Source: an uncultured Opitutales bacterium
Lineage (GTDB): Bacteria; Verrucomicrobiota; Verrucomicrobiia; Opitutales; Seribacteraceae
Assembly: GCA_905612515.1 (NCBI GenBank)
Contig: CAJQSI010000023.1
Span: forward strand, 1 to 32,465
DNA length: 32,465 bases
Reading direction: 5' to 3'
A model generated the notes under the pieces. The model had not been told where the DNA came from. It made no database searches and saw only the letters and a list, made by a program, of their open reading frames with translations. This document shows, in pieces, positions 5,663-32,465 of the stretch. Each line of letters begins with the position of its first letter. Within the stretch, counting starts at the first letter, position 1. Made by a program: the position numbers and the translations under genes.

Positions 5663-7027
5663 ATGAATGTATCAAACTTTTCACTTTCACTAATTATTCA
5701 AACGCTACTGTTCTTTTGCACGACTGCGGCAATGGCGGAACAACACATAAGGCCGCTCGACTGGAGCAAACTCGACGGCGGCGTCGGAGACGACGAGCTG
5801 GGAGCCCTGTGCAAAACAGTGCTTGAACATACACAAAAAGGCATGGGGCAAGAGTGGGTGGACAAAGTAGAAAGCGCAAGGCGCGTGGGAGAATTGCTGG
5901 ATTTCGGATACATTGAGCCCTCTCGCAAGAAGGGCAGACGCCGCGCAATGGAGGACTGCATCCGCCCCGTTACTACCGCATCGCGCACCTTGATTCTGGC
6001 CATACAAACCGGTCAGTACCGGGAAGAAATTGCCGGTGCTCCTGTAGCAAAGATAAAGGAACTTCTTCCTCTGGTGATCCGGTCAGTCGCCAAGGACCAC
6101 AAGATTAACGGCGGTATTGGCAGAGACACCTGGGGGGATACCTGGCAGTCGGCCATGTGGGCGGGGAACCTGGGACAAGTTGCCTGGATGGTCTGGGATG
6201 AGCTGAGCCTCGAGGATCGCTCGCTGGTCACGAATGTATTAGTTCACGAGGCCGACCGGTTTCTGAAAATTCCTCCCCGTACGTCGGATGCTAACAGTGT
6301 TAAAGACACTAAGGGCGAAGAAAATGTCTGGAATTCAACCTGTCTGCTGACAGCGTCGACGATGTTCCTTGATCATCCCCATGAACAGGCGTGGCGCGAA
6401 CAGGCTATTACCTATTTCCTCAACGCAGTTGCTACGCCCCACGACCTGAAGAGTAACCAGATCGTCGATGGAAAGCCCCTGGCCGAGCGGCTGATGGGGT
6501 ACTGCATTACCGAAGACTACGCTGTGGGTAATCACGGAGTGTATCCTCATCCCGGCTATACCTCATCGAGCTACCTTAATACAAAAGGGGTATTTTTCTG
6601 TGCTCTGGCCGATGTAAAACCGCCCGAAGCATTATTCTATAACGCCGCACCGATCTATCGCATGTTCATTGACCACCAGTGGTCAGCACCTCCTTGTACA
6701 GCCCCTGGCGGTACAATCTACAAAGCGGATGGCGGCATCTACTGGCCGATCAAAAAAGAGACCGAACGTGCCGGCCGCTACTACAAGTGGTTCGAACAGG
6801 ATATCATGGCGGCCACCTATGGCTTTGATGAAAAGTGCTCGACCAAAGGCAGAGATTGGGCACTGCAACACGGGCAATTAATTGTCGATGCACTCACAGG
6901 TAAACCTATACTGGTAGAGTTGGAGTCATATCACAAAGGGGCCTTCTTCAAGACCGCTCTCTCCTGCTATATCATCCGCGTTTTACATGTTAACAATCAA
7001 AGATACCTGAAATCCCAAAAGCGGTAG
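5663..7027 (+). CDS. Exported protein of unknown function, alpha/alpha-toroid-like
   Basis: The protein has 454 residues with a signal peptide (about 1-25, ending AAMA). AAGG at 5650-5653 supports the ATG. I cannot assign a family by motif. The body is helical and rich in W and H: a G-x-D-T-W-G-D-T-W-Q-S-A-x-W-A segment near residue 155, GEENVWNST near 215, a stretch like VDGKPLAERLMGYC near 270 and NHGVYPHPGYTSSSY near 290. Repeated helical pairs with conserved His, Tyr and Asn recall (alpha/alpha) toroid polysaccharide lyases and related hydrolases, and the position between glycan-active genes fits such a role. This is an inference from general appearance. It could also be a non-catalytic relative. 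It starts 26 bp after the sulfatase remnant and ends 62 bp before the next gene. Confidence 0.8.
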   Translation: MNVSNFSLSLIIQTLLFFCTTAAMAEQHIRPLDWSKLDGGVGDDELGALCKTVLEHTQKGMGQEWVDKVESARRVGELLDFGYIEPSRKKGRRRAMEDCIRPVTTASRTLILAIQTGQYREEIAGAPVAKIKELLPLVIRSVAKDHKINGGIGRDTWGDTWQSAMWAGNLGQVAWMVWDELSLEDRSLVTNVLVHEADRFLKIPPRTSDANSVKDTKGEENVWNSTCLLTASTMFLDHPHEQAWREQAITYFLNAVATPHDLKSNQIVDGKPLAERLMGYCITEDYAVGNHGVYPHPGYTSSSYLNTKGVFFCALADVKPPEALFYNAAPIYRMFIDHQWSAPPCTAPGGTIYKADGGIYWPIKKETERAGRYYKWFEQDIMAATYGFDEKCSTKGRDWALQHGQLIVDALTGKPILVELESYHKGAFFKTALSCYIIRVLHVNNQRYLKSQKR

Positions 7028-7089: not shown

Positions 7090-10008
7090 ATGAGAAATAT
7101 ACCTATCCTGACAACGGCCGCTGTGCTTGTGTTTGTAGGCTTCGCGACCTTGCAGAGCCTGAGCACCGCGGAGCCTTCCGCCGAGACAACGAAATCTTTC
7201 ACCATCGCGGTTTTGCCTGACACCCAGTATTACTGCGATATACGGCACCAGCTATCTGCCAAGTGGGGCAATGGAGACTTACGGCGCTACTTCTTTGAGC
7301 AAACGGAATGGGTGCGCGACAATCAGGAGCGACTCAATATCGCTTTTCTCGTACACGAAGGAGATATCGTGCAGGCCGACGTCCCCGAGGAATGGGCCAT
7401 CGCCAAGGAAGCCATGTCGATTTTGGATGGGAAAGTCCGCTACTGCATGTGCCTGGGAAATCATGACATGGGCTACCAAAAGACCGATAAGAACAAGTAT
7501 GGCTTCAATATCGCCGTCAACCGGACCACTCTGTTCAATCAATACTTTCCACGCGAAAAATTTGCAAAACGTCGCGAGTTTGGCGGCACCTTCGATCCGG
7601 ATCGCCATGACAATTCCTGGTACCACTTCGAGACCGCAGGACTGAAGTTTCTTATTGTCGCTCTTGAGTACCACCCCCGCGACGAAGTTCTGGATTGGGC
7701 GAACAGAATAGTCACCGAGCATCCTGACCACCGTGCCATTGTCCTGACGCACTCCTACCTGAGAGGGAACAATACGAGAACCACCAATAGGCTGAAACTC
7801 AAAGGCAACAACGGCGAGCAGATGTGGCAAAAGTTCGTCAGGAAGCACAAGAACGTGTTCATGGTTCTCTGCGGTCATTTCAGTGGAGAGGCCGTTCTTA
7901 CGTCGACCGGAGATCATGGCAACCCGGTCCACCAGATTTTGAGCGACTACCAGGAGATGAACAACGGGGGAGAATCATGGCTGCGTTACATGGTCTTCAA
8001 GCCAGAGTCGAACAAGATCAGCATCCACACCTACAATCCCGCACTCGACAAATTCAGGAACGGCCCTTCCAGCAGGTTCGACCTGGACTATCCAATGACG
8101 CTGCTTCCCAAAGCTATTGCTGCCAATGCTCCGGATAAGACTAATCCGGTCAAAGCATTGGCGGATCGCGTTCGCGGGTATGTGAATAGTCAGCCGCTCA
8201 GATTTCCGAATCAGCACTGGGTTCGAGGCGCGTATTATGCGGGGCTGATGGCCATGTATGAAAGCACGTCGGATCGTGCCTATCTGGATGATTGCATGGC
8301 ATGGGGGAAGCAGGTTTCCTGGAGGATTAAGGAACAGGGGGGCGGGCCGTATGAAAGCGGGGCCTATCCGCTGATTTGTGGCCAGATTTGGTATGGGTGT
8401 TATCGGGCTGAGAACGATGAAATGATGATGCGGCCCACCCTTGCGTTTCTCGAAGACCCAAAGGTTGAGAATCCTGTGTCCGCCCCTGGGAAATGGTATT
8501 TGGAAAACACGGGACATCGCTTTGTGGATGGGCTGTTTACCGCACCTCCGGTGCTCGCGATGCTGTATCAAATGACGGGGGATGAAAAATACGTGGATTG
8601 GATGGATGCCTGCTTTTGGGATGTGCACAAAGAAATCTTTGACCACGATGCGGGCCTGTTCTATCGGGACGCACGTTCGAAACCCAGGAAGACGAAGAAC
8701 GGGAAAAAAGTGTTATGGTCCCGGGGCAACGGGTGGGCGTTTGGCGGTTTGACCCGAATCCTGAAACACCTCCCCGAGCATCATAAAAGCTATGCCCGCT
8801 ATAAGGCATTGTATGTTCAAATGGCGGAGTCGCTGGCGAAGCGCCAACAAGCCGATGGGTTCTGGCGAAGCAACCTTGATGATCCTGAACAATATGCAAT
8901 GAAGGAAAGTAGTGGAACCGGGTTCTTCTGCTACGGCATCACCTGGGGAATCAATAATGGGATCTTAAACAAAGAGCGCTTTATTCCGATTGCAAGGAAG
9001 GCATGGACTGCGCTTGCTTCGGTTGTAAACGAAGACGGTAAGGTCGGATGGAGTCAACCCGCCGGCGGTGGTCCCGGCAAAGTTGCGGAAGCAAACACCT
9101 CGAAATTTGGTACCGGTATCTTCCTTCTAGCCGCTAGCGAAATGTTTCTATTGACGAAGAGTCCGGCTGGGACCACGAAGTCAAAGGGCAAGGGGGTCTT
9201 CTTTACCGGGCACAGCTTTTTCATCCTCGGAGGCTATTCGGCGAAAAAAGTTGACCTGATTGCCAAGGCGGCGGGGAAAGAAAAGCACGAGCTTGTCGGT
9301 TGGCGCTACAGCGGCAGCCGAAGCGGCGCCGTGGATAAATGGTGGGAGAAGGGGGCGGACCAGGAACCTCGAAAGTCAGTGGCCGCGGGAAAAGTTGATG
9401 TTTTGACCGTGTGTACCTATTGGATGAAGAAGGGGTCTAAACAGGAGCGATGCGTCCGGAATTTTGTGAAACTGATGCAGGAGAGCAACCCGGACGGGTT
9501 GGTCTACCTCATTACGACCAAGATCCCGTTCGACGGCAAGTACAAGGACAAGGGGGGCTGGAACGCCCGGACAAAGGCTGAGCTCGCCGAGCTCTCCGGC
9601 TGGATTGACGAGACCCACCGGTATCAGTACCACTACAACGGCCTGGTGGACGAGCTCAACAAGGCCTCCGGAAAGACGGTGATCAAGGCAGTGCCTCTCT
9701 ACTACGGACAGGCACTGCTGCGGGCGCAGATCATTGATGGCAAGGTGCCTGGCGTTAAGAAGCAGTCGGAGCTTTACAGTGATGCCATGGGCCACGTTTC
9801 GGAGTTGGGACAAAGACTAAACGCCTACACGGTGTTCGCAGCCATCTACGGAGAGTCGCCGGTTGGCCTGCATGTTCCAGAATGGGAGAAGTCCGGCGAC
9901 ACGGTGCTACGCGCCCAGAATCTCTCCTTGCAGAAAGCCGCATGGGCTGCCGTGCAGATCGTGCCCGTGACCCGGAACACAAAGATCATTAAGGACCGGG
10001 ATGATTGA
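7090..10008 (+). CDS. Exported metallophosphoesterase-GH105-SGNH triple fusion
   Basis: The protein has 972 residues with a signal peptide (about 1-27). Domain 1 (about 36-335) is a calcineurin-like metallophosphoesterase with the metal ligands in order: Asp44 (PDTQ), Asp92 (EGD), Asn124-His125-Asp126 (GNHD), His221 (THS) and His263 (GHF). Domain 2 (about 350-690) is GH105, an unsaturated glucuronyl/galacturonyl hydrolase acting on lyase products. It has Asp480 in VDGLFTAPP, matching the catalytic Asp of the YteR group, and WSRGNGWA. Domain 3 (about 700-965) is an SGNH-like fold with Ser709 (GHS) and Asp898/His902 near the end. All three active sites look complete. The combination is unusual, and codon choice changes between domains, suggesting fusion of once separate genes. 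The phosphoesterase substrate is unknown. GH105 suggests that a lyase acts upstream in the pathway. Confidence 0.88.
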   Translation: MRNIPILTTAAVLVFVGFATLQSLSTAEPSAETTKSFTIAVLPDTQYYCDIRHQLSAKWGNGDLRRYFFEQTEWVRDNQERLNIAFLVHEGDIVQADVPEEWAIAKEAMSILDGKVRYCMCLGNHDMGYQKTDKNKYGFNIAVNRTTLFNQYFPREKFAKRREFGGTFDPDRHDNSWYHFETAGLKFLIVALEYHPRDEVLDWANRIVTEHPDHRAIVLTHSYLRGNNTRTTNRLKLKGNNGEQMWQKFVRKHKNVFMVLCGHFSGEAVLTSTGDHGNPVHQILSDYQEMNNGGESWLRYMVFKPESNKISIHTYNPALDKFRNGPSSRFDLDYPMTLLPKAIAANAPDKTNPVKALADRVRGYVNSQPLRFPNQHWVRGAYYAGLMAMYESTSDRAYLDDCMAWGKQVSWRIKEQGGGPYESGAYPLICGQIWYGCYRAENDEMMMRPTLAFLEDPKVENPVSAPGKWYLENTGHRFVDGLFTAPPVLAMLYQMTGDEKYVDWMDACFWDVHKEIFDHDAGLFYRDARSKPRKTKNGKKVLWSRGNGWAFGGLTRILKHLPEHHKSYARYKALYVQMAESLAKRQQADGFWRSNLDDPEQYAMKESSGTGFFCYGITWGINNGILNKERFIPIARKAWTALASVVNEDGKVGWSQPAGGGPGKVAEANTSKFGTGIFLLAASEMFLLTKSPAGTTKSKGKGVFFTGHSFFILGGYSAKKVDLIAKAAGKEKHELVGWRYSGSRSGAVDKWWEKGADQEPRKSVAAGKVDVLTVCTYWMKKGSKQERCVRNFVKLMQESNPDGLVYLITTKIPFDGKYKDKGGWNARTKAELAELSGWIDETHRYQYHYNGLVDELNKASGKTVIKAVPLYYGQALLRAQIIDGKVPGVKKQSELYSDAMGHVSELGQRLNAYTVFAAIYGESPVGLHVPEWEKSGDTVLRAQNLSLQKAAWAAVQIVPVTRNTKIIKDRDD

Positions 10009-10020
10009 GCCTCGTCGCAT

Positions 10021-10131
10021 AACGCAAAATCAATTTACACCGAAGGTAATAACATGAACATCCTGAAACTAAACGTGGCGGTCTTCTCGTCGCTTATCTC
10101 TCTTCTCTTCGCAGTCGTCGATACGGCTGCA
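10021..10131 (+). repeat. Leader cassette copy 1 (RBS region + signal peptide)
   Basis: These 111 bp hold the ribosome-binding region and the 26-codon signal peptide beginning MNILKLNVAVFSS and ending VVDTAA. The same 111-bp unit stands at 24626-24736, and its coding part recurs at 21091-21168. By eye the 78 coding bases differ at only 3 to 5 positions between copies. After this copy the similarity stops at once, where the GH5 domain begins. Confidence 0.9.
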
Positions 10132-11202
10132 TCGAAACCGCTCGGATTCCGCCCCGGTCCGAACGCTACCGTTATGCTGAACGGGAAACCGTACCGCGGC
10201 GTCGGTATTAACTACTTCAGTTGCTTTCTGCGCACGCTAAAAGATGGCAACGACACTAGCTACGAGTCCGGCTTCGCGACGTTGAAGGCGAAAGGCATCC
10301 CGTATGCACGCTTCTGCGCCACCGGCTTTTGGCCACGGGACATGAAGCTCTACGTCGAAGACCGGGAAGAATACTTTCGTCGACTGGATGGCGTGGTTCA
10401 CTCGGCGGAGAAACATGGCATTGGTTTGATCCCCTCGTTGTTCTGGTATTACGCCTGCGTGCCCGATCTGGTCGGAGAGCCGATGGATCAATGGGCCAAC
10501 CCAAACAGTAAGACGCATGCGTGGATGCGCCAATACGTTCGCGAAGTGGTCACTCGATATCGCGATAACCCGACGATCTGGGCCTGGGAGCTTGGGAACG
10601 AATTTTCGCTCTATGCCGAAATCCTACATGCTGTTCGTCCCAAAGCTGATAGCCGACTCGGCACCCCAGAGACTCGCAGCAAACGCGACGAACTGACGTT
10701 TGACATGGTTCGCCACGCTTTCATCTCCTTCGCGACCGCCGTCAGGGAACATGACCCAAGCCGACTGATCTTTACCGGCGACAGTTTTCCGCGGCTCGCC
10801 GCATGGAACCTAGAGCAGAAAAAGAGCTGGGACCACGATACCATGGAGCAGTTCAAGCAAATGCTGATCAAGGCCAACCCCGACCCGATCAGCGGTATCA
10901 GTCTGCACGCTTACGAGGACGATGACCAGCGCTTCGCCCACGCCATGGAAGTGTCACGACTGGTGAATAAGCCCATCTTCATCGGCGAGTTCGGCGCGCA
11001 GCACGAAACCGAACCGCAAGCCGCCAAGTTCCGACGCCTGCTAAAGGCCATTGTCGACCACGAGATTCCGCTGGCGACGGTATGGGTCTTCGATCATCCG
11101 GCCCAGAAGGATTTCAACATCACAGCCGACAATGGTCGTGCCTATCAGCTCGACCTGATCGTTCAGGCGAATCAGAAGCTAAAAGCAAGTCGAATCCCGT
11201 GA
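10054..11202 (+). CDS. Exported GH5-type (clan GH-A) glycoside hydrolase
   Basis: The protein has 382 residues. The shared leader peptide (1-26) is followed directly by a TIM-barrel glycosidase of the GH5/mannanase-cellulase type. The segment GVGINYFSCF starts the barrel, the acid/base is Glu183 in WELGNEF at the end of strand 4, and the nucleophile is Glu312 in IGEFGA at strand 7. The usual accessory residues are present: Arg in YARF, and His and Tyr in SLHAYED. The length is normal for a single-domain enzyme. It probably cuts a beta-1,4 backbone such as mannan or glucan, but the specificity cannot be read. The start is fixed by an AAGG box and by homology of the leader to two other genes. 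The stop is one base before the next gene's GTG. Confidence 0.9.
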   Translation: MNILKLNVAVFSSLISLLFAVVDTAASKPLGFRPGPNATVMLNGKPYRGVGINYFSCFLRTLKDGNDTSYESGFATLKAKGIPYARFCATGFWPRDMKLYVEDREEYFRRLDGVVHSAEKHGIGLIPSLFWYYACVPDLVGEPMDQWANPNSKTHAWMRQYVREVVTRYRDNPTIWAWELGNEFSLYAEILHAVRPKADSRLGTPETRSKRDELTFDMVRHAFISFATAVREHDPSRLIFTGDSFPRLAAWNLEQKKSWDHDTMEQFKQMLIKANPDPISGISLHAYEDDDQRFAHAMEVSRLVNKPIFIGEFGAQHETEPQAAKFRRLLKAIVDHEIPLATVWVFDHPAQKDFNITADNGRAYQLDLIVQANQKLKASRIP

Positions 11203-12991: not shown

Positions 12992-13200
12992 CGCCTTTTT
13001 GTTGTCCATTCAGAGACTGATGAAACAACACGGGAGAGCGCTTCTGGGACATCCTCGTACTTGGAGACACTTCGGAATAATTGCTCGTAAATTGCTTTTT
13101 CACGCAGGCTTTCCCAGAACCTGTCACTGCGACCATCATCGGGAGAAATATTCGCAACGGGGATTTCAATAGAAAATAAAGTCAAAAAATCTGTCCAGAT
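12990..13200 (-). pseudogene. Possible minus-strand gene fragment, unidentified
   Basis: The 270-bp gap between the FAD and ThuA genes is the only place where the minus strand reads like protein: about 65 residues containing ISPDDGRSDRFWESLREK, then AIYEQLFRSVSKYEDVP and EALSRVVSSVSEW. The composition (amphipathic helices, varied third positions) looks real. The longer minus-strand frame (12913-13350) runs into both flanking genes, where it is only shadow. I do not recognise a family, and no start site stands out. It could be debris of an inserted or deleted gene. The remaining gap holds no clear promoter or terminator. Confidence 0.35.
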
Positions 13201-19845: not shown

Positions 19846-20628
19846 ATGAATATTCAAAGACACCTGGGAATCGTTGGCGTGAGCCTGAGCGTGAGTCTTG
19901 CCCTGACCGTCCTTTTGGGCGCGCCGGCACATGGCGTCGAGCCGCAGGTTGAACCGGCCACGTCGGCGCCGAAGCACCAATCGGTCAACCCTGCGCCTCG
20001 GATCGCCGATTGGTGGTTCGCCCGCCAGGCGGAAAAAATCGGCCTGATGAGCAAGGGAGAGTTCGATCTGTTGATGGTAGGCGATTCCATTACGAACAAT
20101 TATGAAAATGAAAAAGTTGGTTTGAAGGCATGGGGAAAATACTTTGTGCCGCTCAAGGCCATCAACTTGGGTTTTGGCGGTGATCGCACGGAGCACGTGC
20201 TTTGGCGATTGGATCATCTTCCCGTCTTAAAAAAGGCGCCGAAGGGCGCTGTTGTACTCATCGGCACGAACAACATCTGCTGGGGCAGTGACACACCGAA
20301 GCAGGCCGCCGAAGGCGTCCAGGCGGTTGCCGGGAAACTGAAAGAGATCTATCCCGATATGAAGGTCCTGGTGCTTGGCGTATTGCCGCGCAGACGTAAT
20401 CTCGACCATCCGCATCGCAAACAGATAAACGAGCTCAACTCCTATCTGCCGGATCTGCTCAAGGGTATGAAGGGGGTAACATTCAAGGATATCGGTCCCG
20501 CTTTTCTTGATGAGAAGGGTTTCTTGTCAGAAGAGATGATGCCCGATACCACGCATCCGAGCGAGAAGGGGCACGAAGTCTGGGCCGAAGCCATTGCGGC
20601 CGATCTAAAGGAAATGCTGGGTGAATAG
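19846..20628 (+). CDS. Exported SGNH/GDSL esterase (PAF-acetylhydrolase-like)
   Basis: The protein has 260 residues. The signal peptide (about 1-27) is followed by a low-complexity linker and a complete SGNH hydrolase. Block I has Ser81 in VGDSITNN, block II GFGGDRTEHVLWRL, block III GTNNI, and block V Asp234 and His237 in PDTTHPSEKG. The pattern is that of the GDSL group near platelet-activating-factor acetylhydrolase IB subunits, common in PVC glycan clusters. It probably removes O-acetyl or similar esters from the polysaccharide. AAGGA at 19832-19836 supports the ATG. The end overlaps the GTG of the next frame by 8 bases. Confidence 0.9.
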   Translation: MNIQRHLGIVGVSLSVSLALTVLLGAPAHGVEPQVEPATSAPKHQSVNPAPRIADWWFARQAEKIGLMSKGEFDLLMVGDSITNNYENEKVGLKAWGKYFVPLKAINLGFGGDRTEHVLWRLDHLPVLKKAPKGAVVLIGTNNICWGSDTPKQAAEGVQAVAGKLKEIYPDMKVLVLGVLPRRRNLDHPHRKQINELNSYLPDLLKGMKGVTFKDIGPAFLDEKGFLSEEMMPDTTHPSEKGHEVWAEAIAADLKEMLGE

Positions 20629-20977
20629 GGCGTTGCTTTGCTCGTGGACGATTATCTTTGCCGGCCTTTTATTCGTCGCATTTCCAGAGACCGGCTTTGG
20701 GACGGAATATGACATCATCAGGGATGGTAAGCTGACCAGGCACGGGGCGATTGTTGGCCGGTTCACTCGAGCAGGCGACGGGAAAGACGGCAAGGCCTTC
20801 GTGCTGAATGGCCTGTATGAGTTTGTCTATGCCGGTGCGGGTTTCCGCAATACTGACGCGCGGATCCACGCCAGACTCTCCATGAACAAGCTCGGCAACA
20901 CCGTCGCGTGCGTGCTTGTCAACGGACACTGGTTTACCTTCGACATGGGTCCCGGCAATAAGATTGGCGTGGCATGA
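20621..20977 (+). pseudogene. 5' remnant of an exported LamG-like (sialidase-type) gene
   Basis: The GTG start overlaps the esterase stop. 118 residues follow: a signal peptide (about 1-28), then YDIIRDGKLTRHGAIVGRF, a K-A-F-V-L-N-G segment, GFRNTDARIHARLSM and VNGHWFTFD. This resembles the first half of a LamG-like beta-sandwich found at the N-terminus of PVC sialidase-type proteins (from memory of the pattern). The frame ends at a TGA (20975-20977) just inside a segment copied from a GH32 gene, so the natural continuation is missing and the join is out of frame. It may still give a short exported peptide, but it looks like a truncated gene. Confidence 0.65.
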
Positions 20978-21078
20978 ATATGACCCAAAAGACATCTATG
21001 TAAAACTGTTCAGCCAGGGAGGCGATGTTAAGGTTAAATCAATCACCTCATGGAAAATGAATTCTATTTACACAAGTA
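20966..21078 (+). repeat. Direct repeat, GH32 tail, copy A
   Basis: About 110 bp, starting at GGCGTGGCATGAATATGACC, matches 23103-23215. Copy A is followed by a stop codon and the shared leader. Copy B continues in frame into a second enzyme domain. Confidence 0.88.
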
Positions 21079-21086
21079 GGAAATAA
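20966..21086 (+). pseudogene. 3' remnant of a GH32 gene
   Basis: In the frame starting at 20967 this reads AWHEYDPKDIYVKLFSQGG, then DVKVKSITSWKMNSIYTSRK and a TAA at 21084-21086. It is nearly identical in DNA and protein to the end of the GH32 C-terminal sandwich inside the next gene (23103-23215), with a handful of base changes. It has no start and no catalytic part. The natural stop shown here indicates that a stand-alone GH32 once ended at this point. Confidence 0.85.
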
Positions 21087-21786
21087 TAACATGAACATCC
21101 TGAAACTAAACGTGGCGGTCTTCTCGTCGCTTCTCTTTCTTTTCTTCGCAGTCGTCGATACGGCTGCAGGAGACGACTACGTTAACGGCAAACTCGGCAA
21201 GGCGCTGACCCTCGGCCGCAACGCGTCCAGCGTCAAGATCCCGCACTACGCCGGACTCAAACCGGACAAGGCGATCACGATCTCCGCGTGGATCAAGCCG
21301 CAAAGAGTCGGCAAAGGCGAGTGGGATTGGCAGGAGATTTACAGGAAAGAGGATGGCAACGCCCGAGCCCTCCTGGCGATTGGCGAGTACGAGAAGAAGC
21401 ACAGCCTCTGCTTCGGCTTGGGGATCGGCGGGAAGTACGTCGACCATGGCGCACCGTTTGAGCCCGCCAAGTTGCTCGACGGGAAATGGCACTTGGTCAG
21501 CGTGACGTTTGACGGCAAGGCCATCAAATTATACGCAGACGGTCAGGAAATTGGCGCCAAGACGGTCACCGGATCGATTGATACAGGTGGTGAAGCCCCG
21601 GCCTATATCGGCTCGTATAAAGGGAGCGGTGAGTTTTTTAAGGGCGGCATCGACGATGTGCGACTCTATAACAGCGCTCTGTCCGCAGGCGAAATCAAGA
21701 CGATGGCCCTGGCTGACGGCAAGGCCGCTGTCAACGGAATCGTCGGCTGGTGGACGTTCGATGGTGACCTTAAGAACAGCGCCGCG
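21084..21786 (+). repeat. Leader + LamG module, copy A
   Basis: About 700 bp from TAATAACATG to the AACAGCGCCGC at the module's end matches 24652-25357. At protein level the LamG parts are mostly identical (HYAGLKP, AITISAWIKP, YRKEDGNARAL and KKHSLCFGLGIGGK are shared). Upstream of TAATAAC the two copies differ: copy A follows the GH32 remnant, copy B the longer 111-bp leader. Confidence 0.9.
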
Positions 21787-24606
21787 GATGCGCCGAAGAA
21801 CTTGCTTGCAACACTGGAAGGCACACACACTCCCGTCATGCCGAAGAGCCTGCCAAGCTCGTGGCTTACTTACCATCTTGCGCATCCCGGTCCAGACAAT
21901 GCCAGGCCCGCAGATCCAAACTGTGCCATCTATTATGGCGGTCTTTATCATCTTCACTATATCTATCAAAACAGAGGGCACTCTTTTGCACATGTAACAA
22001 GCAAGGACATGGTGCATTGGGAGTGGCAACCCAGTGTTCTCGCGCCGTTCAAAACTGGGCATGGTATGTACAGTGGTACTGCTTTCCTTACCAGAGAAGG
22101 TAAACCGGCCATCATCTATCACGGTGAGGGTTCCAAAAGAAACCAGATCGCTTTTGCACAGGATGATAAGCTCAACAAGTGGTCAAATCCATTTACAGTG
22201 GAGCCCAAAACAGCCGACGGTAAACCAGCAGAAAAAATGCGCCATTGGGACCCTGATTGTTGGGTTATGAACGACACCTATTACGCGCTTGGTGGGGGGC
22301 AAAACCCGACGCTGGCAAAATCAAAAGATCTCAAAACCTGGGAGTTTCTCGGCGAACTGCTGCATCCGGATTTCCCCAAAGACCTGGGCGTGCCTAAAGG
22401 CGAAGATATCTCCTGCGCCAACATGTTCAAAATCGGCGACAAGTGGATGCTCCTGTGTATCAGCCACAAGCTGGGGGCTCGTTATTACCTAGGTGATTTT
22501 AAAGATGAAAAATTCCTTCCCGATCATCACGCCATGATGAACTGGGGGGGGGGGGACTTTTTTGCCCCGGAGTCACTTTTGACTCCAGATGGTCGACGTG
22601 TGATGTGGTCATGGTGTACACCGCCCATTAAGGCCTGGGGGCAGAAAGGTAAAACAAGTGATCTCGCTTCGCTGATGGAAGGGGACAAGAAAATTCAGCG
22701 GGGTATACAGTCTTTGCCTCGCGAGCTCAGCCTTCCAGAGGATGGCGTGTTGCGCATCAAACCTTTACGCGAATTGGAAAAACTTCGTTCCAACAAGAAG
22801 CAAGAGAAAGATATTCAGATAAAAAGCGATACCGCTTACACCGTCAAGAAAATGGCCGGTGACACGCTTGAGTTGGAAGTGACCTTTAGCAACCCCGCCG
22901 CCAATGACTTTGGTGTCAAGGTCTTGTGCGCCAAAGACGGGAGCGGCGGCTTCACCATCTCTTCTGGCAAAGCGAGTAAGGTTTTGAACGTCGGGTATAT
23001 CCAGCCACCTTTTGAATTGAAAACGGGAGAAGACCTGACCTTGCGGATATTCATCGATAAAAGCATGATCGAGGTGTTCGCCAATGACAGGCAGGCCGCG
23101 GTGGCGTGGCATGAATATGACCCAAAAGACATCTATGTAAATCTATTCAGCCAGGGGGGCGATGTTAAGGTTAAGTCGATCACCTCATGGAAAATGAATT
23201 CTATCTATACATCCAAGGGTGTATCGAGGAAGTCGGACGGTGACAGCAATGGATCGGTTTCAGACAAGAAGTTGCAATCGATGTTCTACAAAGCACACCA
23301 CCAAGAAACCGGTAACATGTGGGACGTTTGGCTCCAATATCATGAAGGCACATACTACCTGTACTACCTCGCAAACGTCGGCACATACCGCTGGAGCTGG
23401 GACAATATTTCCATGGCCACGTCGCCTGATGGCGTACACTGGACTGAAAGGGGTCCGATCCTAAAAAAGACTCCGGGAGCCAAGGGGATGGGTACGGGTT
23501 CGAGCTGGAAGTCACCGACCTTCGAAAAGGACGGCAAATTCTATATGAATTTCTCCGAGCAGATGCCCGGCGAACCTCAGAACATCTATTTTGCCGAATC
23601 CGCGGACCTCCTTCACTGGAGCCGCTTAAAGGGGGAAGAATACCGATTCGTACAGAACGAACAATGGTACACGAAGAAGGGTCGCTGGGACTGCATTTGG
23701 ACCACTCCCAAGCCAGGGGGCGGACTCTACGGTTACTGGACCGCAAATCCGGATCGCTCGAAGAAGGACGCCGCTGACGGGCTATTCGGCTTCGGTGAGT
23801 CGCTCGATGGCGTGAACTGGAAAGCACTTGCGCCTCCCAGTGTTATCGATGATGAGAACAGTGGAGAGGTCGGCGCGGTGGAGAAGATCGGTGACAAGTA
23901 CTACATGTTGTTCGGCCACTATCCCGCCATGACGACACTTGTTGCAGATCGACCCGAAGGCCCCTTTCGCAAGGCAAAGAAGAATTACAAGGTCTTAACA
24001 GGGCATACCTACTTCTCTCGCTTCTTCCGTCACCCCGAGGGCATGCTGGCCTGTCATTTCACCCAGGCTCGGGACGTACAGGTCTCATTCGCACCAATAA
24101 AGGACGTGCGTATCGATGACGAGGGAACGCTGCGGTTCGGGTGGTGGAAAGGAAACGAGAAGATGAAACACCGGTCAGTCGCCGTTAAAAATCCGCTTGA
24201 TTCCAACGCCGCTGTCGCCTTGCTCGGCAATACCTTCGATACGAAACAGGGACTTATTATTGAAGGAGTCCTGCGGCTGCCGAAGACAAAGGATTCGCCA
24301 CGCTGCGGGGTGTACGTTGAATGCACGAATAATTTTGGAGCTGGCCTGTTGATTGACAGCAGCGGGGTCGCTGAGTTGGGCCTGATGAACGCGGACGGCA
24401 CAGGTTTCAAAATGGAGAAGCGCGTCGACCGGGAGATGACGTTCGATAGCCCGGCAGCATTTCGCTTACTTGTCAGAGGATCGTTAATGGAATTCTATCT
24501 TGACGATATCCTGATCGAAAGCTTCGCACTGCCAGCCAATGCTAGCGGCAGTATTGGACTGATCAACGCTGGGGATACCATCGGCACAGTGAAAGCTTGG
24601 AATTAG
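21091..24606 (+). CDS. Exported LamG-GH32-second beta-propeller glycosidase fusion
   Basis: The protein has 1171 residues. The shared leader (1-26) is followed by a LamG concanavalin-like module (about 27-240). GH32 (about 250-710) has Asp275 in ADPN as nucleophile, a WDPD segment (Asp387) in place of RDP, and Glu438 in GEDISC as acid/base, then its beta-sandwich. A second five-bladed propeller of GH43/GH32-like type (about 725-1025) has Asp745 (MWDVW), WKSPTF near 806 and Glu926 (SGEVGAVEK). A C-terminal LamG-like domain follows (about 1030-1171). GH32 enzymes hydrolyse fructosides, though PVC relatives may act on other furanosides. The second enzyme is unassigned. The GH32 part ends exactly where the upstream remnant has its stop, so the fusion looks secondary. 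A run of 12 G lies in the GH32 part at 22544-22555. Confidence 0.88.
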   Translation: MNILKLNVAVFSSLLFLFFAVVDTAAGDDYVNGKLGKALTLGRNASSVKIPHYAGLKPDKAITISAWIKPQRVGKGEWDWQEIYRKEDGNARALLAIGEYEKKHSLCFGLGIGGKYVDHGAPFEPAKLLDGKWHLVSVTFDGKAIKLYADGQEIGAKTVTGSIDTGGEAPAYIGSYKGSGEFFKGGIDDVRLYNSALSAGEIKTMALADGKAAVNGIVGWWTFDGDLKNSAADAPKNLLATLEGTHTPVMPKSLPSSWLTYHLAHPGPDNARPADPNCAIYYGGLYHLHYIYQNRGHSFAHVTSKDMVHWEWQPSVLAPFKTGHGMYSGTAFLTREGKPAIIYHGEGSKRNQIAFAQDDKLNKWSNPFTVEPKTADGKPAEKMRHWDPDCWVMNDTYYALGGGQNPTLAKSKDLKTWEFLGELLHPDFPKDLGVPKGEDISCANMFKIGDKWMLLCISHKLGARYYLGDFKDEKFLPDHHAMMNWGGGDFFAPESLLTPDGRRVMWSWCTPPIKAWGQKGKTSDLASLMEGDKKIQRGIQSLPRELSLPEDGVLRIKPLRELEKLRSNKKQEKDIQIKSDTAYTVKKMAGDTLELEVTFSNPAANDFGVKVLCAKDGSGGFTISSGKASKVLNVGYIQPPFELKTGEDLTLRIFIDKSMIEVFANDRQAAVAWHEYDPKDIYVNLFSQGGDVKVKSITSWKMNSIYTSKGVSRKSDGDSNGSVSDKKLQSMFYKAHHQETGNMWDVWLQYHEGTYYLYYLANVGTYRWSWDNISMATSPDGVHWTERGPILKKTPGAKGMGTGSSWKSPTFEKDGKFYMNFSEQMPGEPQNIYFAESADLLHWSRLKGEEYRFVQNEQWYTKKGRWDCIWTTPKPGGGLYGYWTANPDRSKKDAADGLFGFGESLDGVNWKALAPPSVIDDENSGEVGAVEKIGDKYYMLFGHYPAMTTLVADRPEGPFRKAKKNYKVLTGHTYFSRFFRHPEGMLACHFTQARDVQVSFAPIKDVRIDDEGTLRFGWWKGNEKMKHRSVAVKNPLDSNAAVALLGNTFDTKQGLIIEGVLRLPKTKDSPRCGVYVECTNNFGAGLLIDSSGVAELGLMNADGTGFKMEKRVDREMTFDSPAAFRLLVRGSLMEFYLDDILIESFALPANASGSIGLINAGDTIGTVKAWN
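22544..22555 (+). repeat. Poly-G tract (12 G) inside the GH32 coding region
   Basis: Twelve consecutive G encode the glycines of NWGGGDFF. With 12 G the frame is open, and any change by one or two bases would stop translation early. It is the longest mononucleotide run I noticed in the window. Confidence 0.95.
23103..23215 (+). repeat. Direct repeat, GH32 tail, copy B
   Basis: Partner of 20966-21078, lying inside the fusion gene at its GH32/second-propeller junction. Similarity ends at codons IYTS, after which copy A stops and copy B runs on. Confidence 0.88.
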
Positions 24607-24625
24607 GTTGAAACTCACTACCCAC

Positions 24626-24736
24626 AACGCAAAATCAATTCACATCCGAGGTAATAACATGAACATCCTGAAACTAAACGTGGCGATATTCTCTTCGCTT
24701 ATCTTTCTTTTCTTCGCAGTCGTCGATACGGCTGCA
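24626..24736 (+). repeat. Leader cassette copy 3
   Basis: This has the same length and nearly the same sequence as 10021-10131, including some 33 bp before the ATG, so here the homology includes non-coding DNA as well as the signal peptide. Confidence 0.9.
24648..24651 (+). promoter_or_regulatory. Ribosome-binding site that sets the GH31 start
   Basis: GAGG stands 7 bases before the ATG at 24659. This start matches the two other leader copies and is preferred to the TTG at 24608, which adds 17 unrelated residues. Confidence 0.7.
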
Positions 24737-25357
24737 GGAGGCGACTACGCGGACGGCAAACTCGGCAAGGGTTTGATCCTCGACGGTAGTTCGCACACCG
24801 TCAAAATACCCCACTACGCCGGACTCAAACCGGGCAAGGCGATCACGATCTCCGCGTGGATCAAACCCGAGCGCGTCGGCAAAGGCGGTTGGCAGTGGCA
24901 GGAGATTTACAGGAAAGAGGATGGCAACGCCCGAGCCCTCATGGCGATTGGCGAGCGCGAGAAGAAGCACAGTCTCTGCTTCGGACTGGGGATCGGCGGG
25001 AAATTCGTCGAACAGGGCGCACCGCTTGAGCCCGCCAAGTTGCTCGACGGGAAATGGCACTTGGTCAGCGTGACGTTTGATGGCAAGGCAATGAAGTTCT
25101 ACGCAGACGGTCAGGAAATCGGCGCTAACACCAAGGCAAGCGGCGCGATTGACACGCACGGCGAAGCCCCGGCCTATATCGGCTCGTACATGGGGAAGGG
25201 TGAGTTTTTCAAGGGCGGGATCGACGATGTCCGGATCTATAACCGCGCCTTGTCCACAGGCGAAATCAAGACGATGGCCCTGGCTGATGGAAAGGCCACC
25301 GTCGACGGCATCGTCGGCTGGTGGAAGCTTGACGGAGACGTGAAAAACAGCGCCGCC
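24652..25357 (+). repeat. Leader + LamG module, copy B
   Basis: Partner of 21084-21786. Several stretches of 40-50 bp are identical between the copies, which points to a recent duplication or gene conversion. Confidence 0.9.
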
Positions 25358-27637
25358 AAGACGGCCACCGGATCGGTGGCAGAGTTTCGCGGTGTCGACA
25401 GGAAGTGGAAGGCGACCCCCTTCAGCCTTGCCGGGGCGCGGCTAGATATCCGTGCCGCTGGTGAGGCGGCAGTTCGCGTCACGATTCGGCCGATCGATTC
25501 TAAACAGGAGTTTCCTTACACGCCTGCTTTGATTCAACGGGAGTATGCCAAGCCGGTCATCACGCTACAGAAACTCGATTCGAACTTCAAACCACGCAAA
25601 GCAAAGGTGGGCCATTTAACCGTCGAGGTGACAGCCAAGCCACTGACCGTGTTGGTGACCACGTCGGACAACAAGCCCGTGCAGAAGATCACCTTTACGC
25701 CCGATGGGAAAATGTCCTTCGCCCTGGACGGTCATCCGGTTCTGGGTCTGGGCGAAGGCGGCCCGAAGCAGAGCGGCAAATGGCGGGACGACAAGGTTGA
25801 GTTCGATCGACGCGGTCGGGCGCACGTTCTGCAACCTCGCTATGACACCATGGCCTATGGCTCACGAAGTCCCGTGGCGCTGCTCGTCGGCACGGGCGGC
25901 TGGGGATTGTTTGTTGCCACGCCCTGGGGCGACATTGATCTGACGTCCAAAGAAACCGGAACCTTTACACCCGCCGTCCCCATTGTACCGGGCACCGTGG
26001 TTTCTCGAAAGCAGCAGCGCCAGGGTCGCATCGGCTTGCCCCCAGCCGCTTGGAAAACGGACGTCTACGACGTGTTTGTCTTTGATGCGCACGAACCGGC
26101 CGCGTTCATGAAAGACGTTTCGACGATCTCGGGACCGGCCGTCCTGCCGCCGCGTTGGGCGATGGGTTACATGCAATCGCACCGGACCTTGGAAGATGAC
26201 GCGCAGATGGTCGGCATCCTCGATACCTTTCGTGAAAAACAAATCCCAGTCGACGCCGTAATCTACCTCGGCACCGGCTTCACGCCACGGGGCTGGAATA
26301 CACATCAGCCCTCGTTCGAATTCAATCGCGGTGTGTTCAAGCGTGAACCCAAGGACGTGCTCTCCGATCTGCACGCGCGCCATGCCAAAGTCGTCGTCCA
26401 CATGATCCCATGGGATCGCGGGCGTCTGGAAACACTGCACGGATCCATTCCGCCCAAGTCCGGCGAGACAGTCGACAGCCACCACATCGATTCTTATTGG
26501 AAAGAGCACAACGCGCTGGTCGACACCGGCGTCGATGCGTGGTGGCCCGACGAGGGCGACTGGTTCAGCTTCCACGAACGCATGAAGCGCCATCAGCTCT
26601 ATTACGAAGGCCCCCTCTCCAAAATACCGAACGTTCGCCCCTGGTCTCTGCATCGTAACGGCCATCTGGGCGTGGCGCGTTACGGCGGGTGGATCTGGTC
26701 GGGCGATACGCACGCTTCGTTCAAAACCCTCGAAGCGCAGATCGCCGTGGGCATCAACCACTCGCTGAGCCTTTCACCCTTCTGGGGCTCGGACATCGGC
26801 GGTTTCTATCCCACTCAGGATCTGACCGGTGAGCTCTACGCCCGGTGGTTTCAGTTCGCCGCCTTTACCTCATCGTTCCGCGGACACGGACGAACTTGGC
26901 AGATGCGACTACCTTGGGGGTGGGGCCTGGACAACATGGGGCCGAAAGAGAGCGGGACGCCTCCCTTAGAATCGGAGCTTAACAATCCCAAGATCGAACC
27001 GATCGCCAAAAAGTACGCCGAACTGCGCTACCAATTGCTGAGCTACAACTACACGCTGGCTTGGGAAGCCCGGGCGACGGGAATGCCCATGATGCGATCG
27101 ATGTGGCTGCACTATGCGGACGACAAGAAGGCGAGGGGGGTAGGCGACCAGTACCTCTGGGGGCGCGACTTGCTCATCGCACCAGTGTATAAGAAAGGCG
27201 CGACGGCCCGAGAGGTCTATCTTCCAGCAGGAAAATGGTACGATTGGTGGACCGGCAAGCTCGAGACCGGCGGCCGCACCGCTGAGCGCTCCGTAGATCT
27301 AGCCACGATGCCGATCTATGTTCGCGGAGGCGCGATCGTGCCGGTCGACCCCATCCGTCAATACACCGGACAAAAGGTCGACGAGCCCACGACACTCAAG
27401 ATCTACCGAGGCGCCAACGGTAACTACACGCTGTACGACGACGACGGCATCAGCCTTGATTACCTCCAAGGCGATTCAGTCCAGACACTGATCAAGTGGG
27501 ACGATGCAGCCAAAACGCTGAGCCTCGAACCGGCGTCAAAGCAGACGGCCACGCGCACGTTCCAGGTTGAACTTATTCCTGATGGCGTGACCAAGAAGAT
27601 TCAATACACGGGTCAACGCGTCGATCTGAAATTCTAA
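24659..27637 (+). CDS. Exported LamG-GH31 alpha-glycosidase
   Basis: The protein has 992 residues: shared leader (1-26), LamG module (about 27-235), galactose-mutarotase-like N-domain (about 240-470), GH31 TIM barrel (about 480-830), and C-terminal sandwiches ending near 992 with the YDDDG segment typical of the DUF5110 region. The nucleophile is Asp631 in WWPDEGDW and the acid/base Asp683 in WSGDTHAS. SPFWGSDIGGF and FRGHGR are further GH31 signatures. The family includes alpha-xylosidases, alpha-glucosidases and alpha-galactosidases, and the specificity is not readable here. The LamG module is almost a copy of the one in the preceding GH32 gene, implying module exchange. The intergenic distance to that gene is 52 bp, and the two are probably in one operon. 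Confidence 0.92.
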   Translation: MNILKLNVAIFSSLIFLFFAVVDTAAGGDYADGKLGKGLILDGSSHTVKIPHYAGLKPGKAITISAWIKPERVGKGGWQWQEIYRKEDGNARALMAIGEREKKHSLCFGLGIGGKFVEQGAPLEPAKLLDGKWHLVSVTFDGKAMKFYADGQEIGANTKASGAIDTHGEAPAYIGSYMGKGEFFKGGIDDVRIYNRALSTGEIKTMALADGKATVDGIVGWWKLDGDVKNSAAKTATGSVAEFRGVDRKWKATPFSLAGARLDIRAAGEAAVRVTIRPIDSKQEFPYTPALIQREYAKPVITLQKLDSNFKPRKAKVGHLTVEVTAKPLTVLVTTSDNKPVQKITFTPDGKMSFALDGHPVLGLGEGGPKQSGKWRDDKVEFDRRGRAHVLQPRYDTMAYGSRSPVALLVGTGGWGLFVATPWGDIDLTSKETGTFTPAVPIVPGTVVSRKQQRQGRIGLPPAAWKTDVYDVFVFDAHEPAAFMKDVSTISGPAVLPPRWAMGYMQSHRTLEDDAQMVGILDTFREKQIPVDAVIYLGTGFTPRGWNTHQPSFEFNRGVFKREPKDVLSDLHARHAKVVVHMIPWDRGRLETLHGSIPPKSGETVDSHHIDSYWKEHNALVDTGVDAWWPDEGDWFSFHERMKRHQLYYEGPLSKIPNVRPWSLHRNGHLGVARYGGWIWSGDTHASFKTLEAQIAVGINHSLSLSPFWGSDIGGFYPTQDLTGELYARWFQFAAFTSSFRGHGRTWQMRLPWGWGLDNMGPKESGTPPLESELNNPKIEPIAKKYAELRYQLLSYNYTLAWEARATGMPMMRSMWLHYADDKKARGVGDQYLWGRDLLIAPVYKKGATAREVYLPAGKWYDWWTGKLETGGRTAERSVDLATMPIYVRGGAIVPVDPIRQYTGQKVDEPTTLKIYRGANGNYTLYDDDGISLDYLQGDSVQTLIKWDDAAKTLSLEPASKQTATRTFQVELIPDGVTKKIQYTGQRVDLKF

Positions 27638-27731: not shown

Positions 27732-29156
27732 ATGAATGGAATCCTCTGCTGGATAGGCGGCCTGGCTTTTGCACTACCGCTGCTCAACGCCGCGCCGCCG
27801 TCGCAGGCATCCGCTAAATCGGAACGCCCGCGGGTCGTCGTCCTGACCGACATTACCAATGAGCCAGATGATGAAGAATCGCTGGTGCGTTTTCTCGTCA
27901 GTTCCAGCGACTACGACGTCGAGGCGCTGATTGCCACGACCTCCACGTGGCTGAGGAAGAAAGTACGCCCCGAAAAAATCCAGGCCCAGATCCGCGCTTA
28001 CGCGAAAGTCTATCCGAATCTGATCAAACACGACTCCCGTTACCCGTCCGCCAAATACCTGTTGTCGGTCACCCGTGCTCACTTACCGCTCTACGGCATG
28101 AGCGGCGTGGGTGATGGAAAGGACAGCCCCGGTTCCAACCTGCTCATCGCAGTCGTCGACAAGCCCGACCCTCGCCCCGTTTGGGTGACTGTCTGGGGCG
28201 GAGGCAACTGCCTGGCCCAGGCTCTGTGGAAAGTACGCAACACCCGGAGCAAGGCGGACCTGGCCAAATTCGTCGCAAAGATCCGCGTCTATACCATCAG
28301 CGATCAGGACGACACTGGCGCCTGGCTGCGCAAGCAGTTCCCCGGGCTTTTCTATATTGTCACGCCGAGCAAACAATCACATCACGAATACCACCTGGCC
28401 ACATGGACGGGCATCTCAGGTGAACGCCGGTACAAGTTTGCCGCGCCGCCGAGTTATTTCGCCTGGATCAGCAACGCATGGTTGAGCCAGAACGTCATCC
28501 AGGGTCACGGTCCACTTGGGGCACTTTATCCGAAGTGGAAGTACATCATGGAAGGCGACACGCCGGCGTTTCTAAACCTGATCGACAACGGGCTGGCCGG
28601 CGAGATAAGCCCCAGCCACGGCGGTTGGGGCGGACGATACAAGCTCCGAAAACCTTCAGGCGAATCCCGCCCGATCTGGACCAACAGCCCTGACACGCTC
28701 ACGGTAGAGGGGAAATCCTATACCAGCCCGCATGCAACCGTGTGGCGATGGCGGGAGGCCTACCAGAACGATTTCGCCGCCCGTATGGATTGGTGCATCG
28801 CAGGCAATCGCCCAGACGCCAATCACCATCCTGTGGCGGTTGTCAACGGCGCCGAGGGCAAGAGCATCATCGCGATAACCGCCAGTCCCGGCCAAACTCT
28901 CACACTCAGCGCCGCAGGCTCATCCGATCCTGATGGCAACAAGATCACTTACAGATGGTTTCAATACCTGGAGGCGGGCACCGCCAGCCGCACCGATATC
29001 GTGGGACAAGAAACCAGCAAGATCACATTCAAAGCTCCGAACGAACCGGGGCGAACCGTCCACATCATCCTGGAACTACGCGACAACGGAACCCCCAACC
29101 TGTTCGCGTACCGACGGACAGTCGTAACCCTCCGGGACAAATGTACTTCTTACTAA
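27732..29156 (+). CDS. Exported DUF1593 protein (Sde182-like, nucleoside-hydrolase-like domain)
   Basis: The protein has 474 residues. The signal peptide (about 1-20) is followed by a domain of the DUF1593/Sde182 nucleoside-hydrolase-like family: VVLTDITNEPDDEESLVRFL puts acidic residues Asp40, Asp46 and Asp47 where inosine-uridine hydrolases bind calcium. VTVWGGGNCLAQAL and YTISDQDDTGAWLRKQFP are further family segments. Residues about 375-474 form an Ig/cadherin-like C-terminal sandwich, with SSDPDGNKITYRWFQY resembling PKD-type repeats. The family occurs in PVC and Bacteroidetes glycan clusters, and one member was reported to bind cellulose. Hydrolysis of N- or O-glycosides is plausible, but the substrate is unknown. 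The upstream 94 bp show no clear promoter. Confidence 0.88.
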   Translation: MNGILCWIGGLAFALPLLNAAPPSQASAKSERPRVVVLTDITNEPDDEESLVRFLVSSSDYDVEALIATTSTWLRKKVRPEKIQAQIRAYAKVYPNLIKHDSRYPSAKYLLSVTRAHLPLYGMSGVGDGKDSPGSNLLIAVVDKPDPRPVWVTVWGGGNCLAQALWKVRNTRSKADLAKFVAKIRVYTISDQDDTGAWLRKQFPGLFYIVTPSKQSHHEYHLATWTGISGERRYKFAAPPSYFAWISNAWLSQNVIQGHGPLGALYPKWKYIMEGDTPAFLNLIDNGLAGEISPSHGGWGGRYKLRKPSGESRPIWTNSPDTLTVEGKSYTSPHATVWRWREAYQNDFAARMDWCIAGNRPDANHHPVAVVNGAEGKSIIAITASPGQTLTLSAAGSSDPDGNKITYRWFQYLEAGTASRTDIVGQETSKITFKAPNEPGRTVHIILELRDNGTPNLFAYRRTVVTLRDKCTSY

Positions 29157-31778: not shown

Positions 31779-31946
31779 ATGATGATCAAACGAGTGTTCG
31801 CATGTGTTGCTATTATCCTCCTGGCGGCCTTGACCACACAGGCAGAAGTTCAACTCTCCGGTGTCTTCGGCGACCACATGGTGCTTCAGCGGGAACGACC
31901 CGTGCCGGTTTATGGTACGGCCGTTGGAGCTGCAGTTCCAGGATGA
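31779..31946 (+). pseudogene. 5' stub of a sialate O-acetylesterase-like gene
   Basis: The frame encodes 55 residues: a signal peptide starting [20 protein letters not shown], then [20 protein letters not shown] and VYGTA, followed by TGA. The segment G-V-F-x-D-H-M-V-L-Q-R-x-x-P-V-P-V is the characteristic opening of the sialate O-acetylesterase (SASA) family, whose members have about 500 residues with an SGNH core. Here all catalytic parts are missing. No clear ribosome-binding site is seen, 23 bp after the previous stop. It is the complement of the sulfatase and GH32 tails elsewhere: a head without a body. Confidence 0.78.
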
Positions 31947-31996
31947 ATTATTCACGCTTTGCTTGTCCGGTCGAAACGACAACAAATGGGATCACT

Positions 31997-32465
31997 ATGA
32001 AAAGTCTGTTCATTTTTTTAACTGTTTTTGCCTCTAGTTTTGCACTGACGGGAAAGCGGATTTTCGGTAAAGCAATATCTCTGTTGTTTGTTTCGGCGGC
32101 GTGTGCGCAGCGGATGTTCCATCGTTTGATCGGGATATACGCCCGATTCTTTCTGATCGCTGTTATGCATGCCACGGGCCGGATGAAAAAAAGCGCAAAG
32201 CAGATCTTCGGCTGGATACTCGCGAAGGTGCACTGGCCGATCTTGGTGGCTATCAGGCGATTGTTCCAGGGCAGCCGAATGAGAGCGAGTTGATTGCCAG
32301 GATCTTGTCTGATGATGTGGATGAAATGATGCCTCCGCCAGATTCGCATCTATCTCTCAACCCTAAGGAGAAGGCGCTTTTTCGCAGCTGGATCGAAGGA
32401 GGGGCCGAATGGGAAGGGCACTGGGCCTTTGAACCGCTCGTTAAACCGGCGCGACCCTCTTCCTT
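31997..32465 (+). CDS. Planctomycete-type cytochrome c (PSCyt1) gene, frameshifted, 3' end outside window
   Basis: From ATG 31997 the frame gives MKSLFIFLTVFASSFA and then a second signal-like stretch, KRIFGKAISLLFVSAACA. Near 32104-32112 the meaningful frame changes by one base: downstream from 32113 it reads DVPSFDRDIRPILSDRC, with the heme motif CYACHG (32161-32178), LRLDTREGAL, the D-E-M-M-P-P-P segment and W-I-E-G-G-A. This is the classical PSCyt1 module that precedes DUF1549/DUF1553 in PVC proteins. Adding one base near 32106 would join the halves as ...SAACAAADVPSF. Either the gene is broken or a base was missed in sequencing. The frame is otherwise open to the window edge. Confidence 0.8.

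Follow-up and report, generated by a model that had tools for sequence, protein, structure and literature searches.

How did two neighboring genes that encode enzymes of different glycoside hydrolase families come to share their first 700 bp? The window analyzed here, a stretch of 32,465 nt, carries a GH32 gene followed in the same orientation by a GH31 gene, and both open with a signal peptide leader and a LamG module. The preliminary description of this DNA took the arrangement for recent domain shuffling between neighbors. Our reading, to which we give a probability of about three in four, is that a single 5' module (signal peptide with LamG) became attached on one occasion to a GH32(-GH43) enzyme and on another to a GH31 enzyme, that both joinings preceded the parting of the sampled lineages, and that they took place in an island of genes that is exchanged. 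The window, which might tentatively be placed in the family MB11C04, is contig C23 of the fragmented MAG G000 (1.95 Mb, 115 contigs, 52% complete), and all of the genomes with which it was compared are fragmented MAGs. Among these, G001 is the sister of G000, G002 belongs to the same genus, and G010 belongs to another genus.

One 5' module on two catalytic families

Comparison of the window with itself using BLAST recovered one strong direct repeat, 21084-21785 against 24652-25356, with 86.4% identity over 705 bp (93 mismatches and one 3-bp indel) and a start-to-start spacing of 3568-3571 bp. The longest exact runs within the repeat are 55 bp (at 21458), 45 bp (21328), 39 bp (21134), and 34 bp (21084). 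Similarity halts at 21785/25356, where the unrelated catalytic regions of GH32 and GH31 start. The preliminary description had reported about 700 bp of shared leader and LamG, identical stretches of 40-50 bp, and an abrupt end of similarity at the catalytic domains, and it was accurate on all of these points. Both copies were identified with the Laminin_G_3 profile (PF13385) at 95.8 and 90.9 bits, compared with a cut-off of 27.6. The G000 genome contains 31 LamG matches. Among the 29 LamG domains of this genome that were compared, the repeat pair is an outlier with 83.75% protein identity; the next pair reaches 57.9%, and the rest are at most 38% identical. The two copies are therefore not as divergent as ordinary LamG paralogues, and that reading of the pair was rejected. 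The coordinates of the features discussed are listed in Table 1.

Table 1. Positions of genes, modules, leaders, and gene-tail remnants in the window
Feature	Position	Strand	Remarks
Third leader, on GH5 gene (ORF 10054-11202) without LamG	10018..10131	+	Sequence similarity
Scar: spacer downstream of FAD gene joined to 3' tail of lactonase-like gene	13027..13101	+	13033-13101 is 94% identical to L057 13785-13853
Truncated ORF with signal peptide-like 5' end, running out of frame into GH32 tail copy	20621..20977	+	
GH32 3'-end remnant (AWHEYDPKDIYVKLFSQGGDVKVKSITSWKMNSIYTSRK, then stop)	20965..21083	+	First 110 bp match 23102-23211 (94%)
Leader on GH32 gene	21084..21168	+	7 nt upstream plus 26-codon signal peptide; 96% to GH5 copy, 95% to GH31 copy
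ORF of 1171 aa: signal peptide, LamG, GH32 (N and C domains), GH43-like third domain	21091..24606	+	Pfam
LamG module of GH32 gene	21169..21785	+	Pfam LamG 21223-21699
GH32 catalytic and C-terminal domains	21892..23193	+	PF00251, PF08244; best PDB relative 7vco
3' part of intact GH32 domain, counterpart of remnant	23102..23211	+	94% over 110 bp to 20965-21074
GH43-like domain, in-frame fusion	23215..24606	+	PF04616, E 1.6e-12, partial; 90% nt identity in G001
ORF of 1009 aa: signal peptide, LamG, GH31, DUF5110	24608..27637	+	Likely start ATG 24659; Pfam
Leader on GH31 gene	24623..24736	+	36 nt shared upstream; 91% to 10018-10131 over 114 nt; relatives in G010, G032, G003
LamG module of GH31 gene	24737..25356	+	Pfam LamG 24782-25270
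Scar: GH31 gene end plus downstream spacer, behind truncated esterase-like 5' end	31918..32030	+	92% to L057 12575-12687

The first of the two genes also encodes a GH43-like third domain that went unmentioned in the preliminary description. The GH43 profile match covers only positions 11-102 of 288 (47.8 bits, cut-off 32.2), and no significant PDB relative of this domain was found. The GH32N and GH32C profiles matched above cut-off, at 128.5 and 62.5 bits. This region has the two-domain layout and DPN motif of sucrose-6-phosphate hydrolase 7vco and beta-fructosidase 1uyp but differs from both in having a LamG in front, a GH43-like domain behind, and a Ser in place of the Glu of the EC motif. 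The nucleophile Asp (DPN motif) and the Asp of the RDP motif are present, with DPN and (H)WDPD aligning to 7vco, and are conserved in relatives. The acid/base Glu is absent: the window domain and 9 of 10 relatives have Ser (D-I-S-C or D-V/L-S-C) at the aligned position, and a relative in G005 has D-F-A-C there. Given this Ser, ordinary fructosidase activity should not be assumed, and we describe the domain, from its residues, as a GH32 homologue of uncertain and perhaps different activity. The same replacement was also seen with loci L066, L067, L124, and L127.

The GH31 barrel and C-terminal profiles matched the second gene at 158 and 104 bits. Its catalytic part is nearest to alpha-xylosidases such as BoGH31A (5jou), the closest solved relative, to which the window gene adds an N-terminal LamG. 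Of the catalytic Asp pair, WSGD aligns with 5jou, and WWPDEGDW is present but lies in a weakly aligned stretch. Whole LamG-GH31 orthologues occur in G010 and G003, and of the four family members with the gene, three carry this LamG on it. In the G003 gene, identity to the window gene is 92-93% over the leader and the catalytic part, with silent-site saturation in a portion of its LamG. The N-terminal region of the G032 gene is not a LamG and gave weak F5/8- and PKD-like matches. What stands between leader and catalytic domain thus differs among relatives. This G032 gene (L057 on contig C19, 9518-12598) is itself a mosaic, with a leader 91% identical to that of G010, a saturated core, and residues 828-977 at 89-95%.

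Age and origin of the shared LamG

The two LamG copies in the window differ by a dS of 0.44, with a dN/dS of 0.25. The GH32-type LamGs of G000 and MAG CAJQKQ differ by a dS of 0.25, and the GH31-type LamGs of G000 and G010, from different genera, by 0.39. The window copies are thus no closer to each other than orthologues are, and the test for a recent segmental duplication failed. A LamG tree split the GH32-type from the GH31-type sequences with a support of 100. At 27 sites, the GH32 copy in the window agrees with the GH31 copy in the window against CAJQKQ, and at 31 sites CAJQKQ agrees with the GH31 copy. These balanced counts therefore give no sign of conversion within LamG, and recent gene conversion there was rejected on the tree and the site patterns. 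LamG distances are not fully tree-like, as G010 is nearer to the GH32 copy of G000 than to that of CAJQKQ.

CAJQKQ contains both the LamG-GH32 and the GH32-GH43 fusions at approximately 90% nucleotide identity, split over contigs L123 and L128. Homology begins three bases before the start codon. The fusion has no GH31 neighbor, other genes upstream, no GH32 tail ahead of it, and a different gene downstream. The GH43 part of G000 differs from those of G001 and CAJQKQ by a dS of 0.23-0.24. Most of the gene is approximately 90% identical in L128, and a 60-codon block (residues 537-596 of the 1171-aa ORF) is 73% identical with a dS of 1.5. The dS values, the tree, the LamG-GH32-GH43 gene of CAJQKQ, and the LamG-GH31 genes of G010 and G003 all indicate an older event for which adjacency is not needed. 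On these sequence comparisons, the LamG sharing predates the separation of the sampled lineages. What holds of the preliminary description is the domain shuffling itself, with one module on two catalytic families; its dating of the event as recent does not hold, and the exchange was not necessarily local, given the same fusion among other neighbors in CAJQKQ.

A recent duplication or gene conversion between the two neighbors in G000 would fit their adjacency in direct orientation, the exact runs of up to 55 bp, and the leader alone, in which the GH32 copy of G000 is nearer to the GH31 copy of its own genome than to the GH32 copy of CAJQKQ. We nevertheless regard such a local event as very unlikely, because LamG dS between the copies exceeds the divergence of the GH32 orthologues, the tree groups sequences by enzyme and not by genome, the shared sites are balanced, and LamG-GH32-GH43 is found elsewhere without a GH31 neighbor. 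The 110-bp copy of a GH32 tail directly upstream of the LamG-GH32 ORF, which the preliminary description had not recorded, raises a different scenario. In an ancestral order of GH32 followed by leader-LamG-GH31, a segment running from within GH32 to the end of LamG could have been duplicated in tandem, creating the in-frame LamG-GH32 gene, with the old GH32 later lost except for its last 110 bp. This scenario would account for the position of the tail and for its 94% identity to the intact copy. It is unlikely, though it deserves more weight than the other alternatives: the sequence from tail to leader is not shared with the sequence before the GH31 leader, GH43 intervenes in the second copy, and the CAJQKQ fusion lacks a preceding tail. 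Somewhat less probable again is separate acquisition of leader and LamG by the two genes, with a third LamG gene of the exchanged pool as the donor to each. That the pool is common to several genera and that the leader is also found on GH5 and on a LamG-free GH31 would suit a third donor, but among 42 genomes of the family we found no third gene with this LamG, all other matches being at most 44% identical.

Under the reading we prefer, in which the module was joined long ago to each of two enzymes, the LamG would have been copied from GH31 to GH32. This direction is slightly favored because the close non-GH32 relatives of the LamG all sit on GH31 and most GH32 relatives lack such a LamG, having either none or a different one between leader and catalytic domain. 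With only five close LamG sequences, the direction is a parsimony argument, and copies absent from a 52% complete MAG and from fragmented genomes may alter both polarity and count. Recombination in the island, homologous at shared gene ends and illegitimate elsewhere, would repeatedly place existing 5' ends on new catalytic bodies and leave gene-tail scars behind. The preliminary description had also proposed that the repeats allow deletion of the GH32 segment. Their geometry does permit a loss of 3.57 kb comprising GH32 and GH43, but no 3568-bp deletion product was seen, and the deletion scars that are present do not use the LamG repeats.

The leader and a probably exchanged island

The leader occurs a third time in the window, on a GH5 gene without LamG, a copy absent from the preliminary description. 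Similarity to the GH5 copy extends from the upstream spacer to the likely signal-peptidase site, signal peptides having been judged by eye only. The same leader is found in G032 on a GH31 without LamG. One 5' secretion end, with predicted export, is thus carried by unrelated bodies: GH5, LamG-GH32, LamG-GH31, and GH31 without LamG. Most family members lack the leader, and a search of 384 sampled genomes of the class found it in none besides G000. Silent changes in the leader are far below those in the body for G000 GH32 compared with G003 (P = 3e-6), G010 with G032 (P = 9e-9), and G003 with G032 (P = 6e-8), with the caveats that these P values assume independence of sites and that the leader offers only about 20 silent sites. 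They are not reduced for G000 GH32 compared with CAJQKQ or for G000 GH31 compared with G010. The GH5 and GH32 leaders differ by 0 synonymous changes (pS 0). The best reading of these patterns is that the 26-codon leader was exchanged separately from LamG and more recently. In the sister genome G001 (L054, contig C375), the spacer behind GH43 is shared up to window position 24651 and turns unrelated near 6946, exactly where the leader would be expected to start.

A perfect 8-bp hairpin ends the leader in all three window copies (10109-10131, 21146-21168, and 24714-24736) and in CAJQKQ, and it sits where the similarity of the GH5 copy stops. Constraint on RNA or codons, instead of exchange, could then have conserved the leader, and fold z-scores of -1.3 to -1.9 lean the same way. 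However, amino acid changes are about as frequent as silent ones in several pairs, and most family members do without the leader. Since the G010 and G032 hairpins have lost strength and nothing stands out in the folding, constraint is the weaker explanation, and we consider it improbable. An RNA element in the leader was rejected on the weak folding, the lack of hairpin conservation in G010 and G032, and the lack of an Rfam match; the window as a whole matched no known RNA family. A bolder idea is doubtful, if a shade less so than constraint: the leader might act as a recombination tag, a short conserved 5' cassette (spacer, start, signal peptide, and a hairpin where cleavage occurs) that, with the help of conserved gene ends, permits catalytic bodies and accessory domains to be exchanged among secreted CAZymes. 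Were it correct, new secreted CAZymes would arise in one step across genera from a community gene pool. Under the preferred reading, the leader presumably exports its enzyme and the LamG presumably helps bind the polysaccharide of that enzyme, in which case re-use of the module would give several enzymes the same address.

Between G000 (or its sister G001) and either G010 or G032, the housekeeping genes have reached saturation at silent sites. The FAD, GH88, and GH31 catalytic regions differ from those of G010 by a dS of only 0.23-0.35, and FAD and GH88 differ from those of G032 by 0.21-0.23. For G003, the GH31 catalytic part has a dS of 0.26, and three of four housekeeping comparisons gave 0.56-1.2; the fourth (L151-L162) gave 0.08 with a high dN and looked frame-disturbed. 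The window has a GC content of 0.552 and a 4-mer profile unlike that of most other sampled contigs of the bin. On contig C26 of G003, an island part with a GC content of 0.540 lies beside DNA of native composition with a GC content of 0.465, with P(g1) of at least 0.95 from a composition classifier that had few training contigs and misjudged one (L233). Taken together, these divergences and compositions are best read as placing both genes in a CAZyme island that has been exchanged horizontally between marine Verrucomicrobiota genera. A tRNA-linked island was rejected, as the 32,465-nt window contains no tRNA, and no recombinase was found among its Pfam-annotated ORFs. Such an exchange would be imitated by chimeric contigs, assembled across shared sequence, or by wrong binning of the clusters into G010 and G032; all genomes are MAGs, the cluster contigs are small (10.5 kb for C18 of G010 and 8.3 kb for C375 of G001), and cluster composition is unlike the rest of the bin. 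Each fusion, however, was recovered from two or more independent assemblies, G001 shares the GH43-GH31 spacer, and the joint presence of island and native DNA on C26 of G003 argues against mere mis-binning there. An artefact is accordingly the least probable of the explanations considered.

Known parallels, scars, and mosaic genes

The event is ordinary domain shuffling, of a known kind, that is unusually well resolved. As in other CAZyme domain shuffling with CBM or LamG modules, an accessory module stands in frame on different catalytic families with sharp boundaries at the domain edges. The difference is that here both products are adjacent, their shared DNA retains 86% identity, and the event can be dated from orthologues. 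The leader resembles the terminal reassortment known for the secretion signals of secreted effectors (Stavrinides 2006, as described in PMC5675462 and PMC7406222), in which unrelated proteins likewise come to carry the same 5' segment of upstream sequence plus export signal. In contrast to those effectors, the signal peptide here is of the Sec type, the proteins are marine polysaccharide enzymes, and in some cases an accessory domain moves together with the signal. CAZyme-rich MAGs of the same phylum have been described as marine Verrucomicrobiota CAZyme specialists of phytoplankton blooms (PMC8857213); the words horizontal, mosaic, and duplication do not occur in the main text of that paper. 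We found no paper describing this locus or the shuffling of LamG in Verrucomicrobiota.

Views on the origin of new CAZyme architectures in marine bacteria mostly derive from old sequences with blurred traces. At this locus and in its relatives, the two products and several abandoned gene ends can still be read at the DNA level, so the order of events, the unit of exchange (leader, leader plus LamG, or catalytic body), and transfer between genera become directly testable. The locus also calls for caution, as similarity of LamG or leader in such MAGs need not mean a recent local duplication.

Two scars lie outside the repeat region, involving genes that we named lactonase and esterase by eye from the sequence. 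FAD homology stops at 13026, and in G010 and G032 the FAD gene is followed immediately by a leader-GH31 gene. The truncated ORF ahead of the GH32 remnant (20621-20977) has no Pfam or NCBIfam match. Another window ORF (7090-10008) fuses a metallophosphatase-like N-terminal part, 74-75% identical to loci in G004, G010, and G032, to a GH88 part; the N-terminal part matches vertical-looking loci, and the GH88 part is 92% identical to other loci in G010 and G032. In G002, the start of a sulfatase-like gene with its signal peptide is fused in frame to an Sde182 tail (L214 on contig C465, 6386-6925), and this sulfatase/Sde182 joint shares CATCATGG, with its window counterpart at 28544. Finally, a 25-kb contig of G000 itself (C39) contains many LamG repeats in giant open frames of approximately 6186 and 2378 aa.
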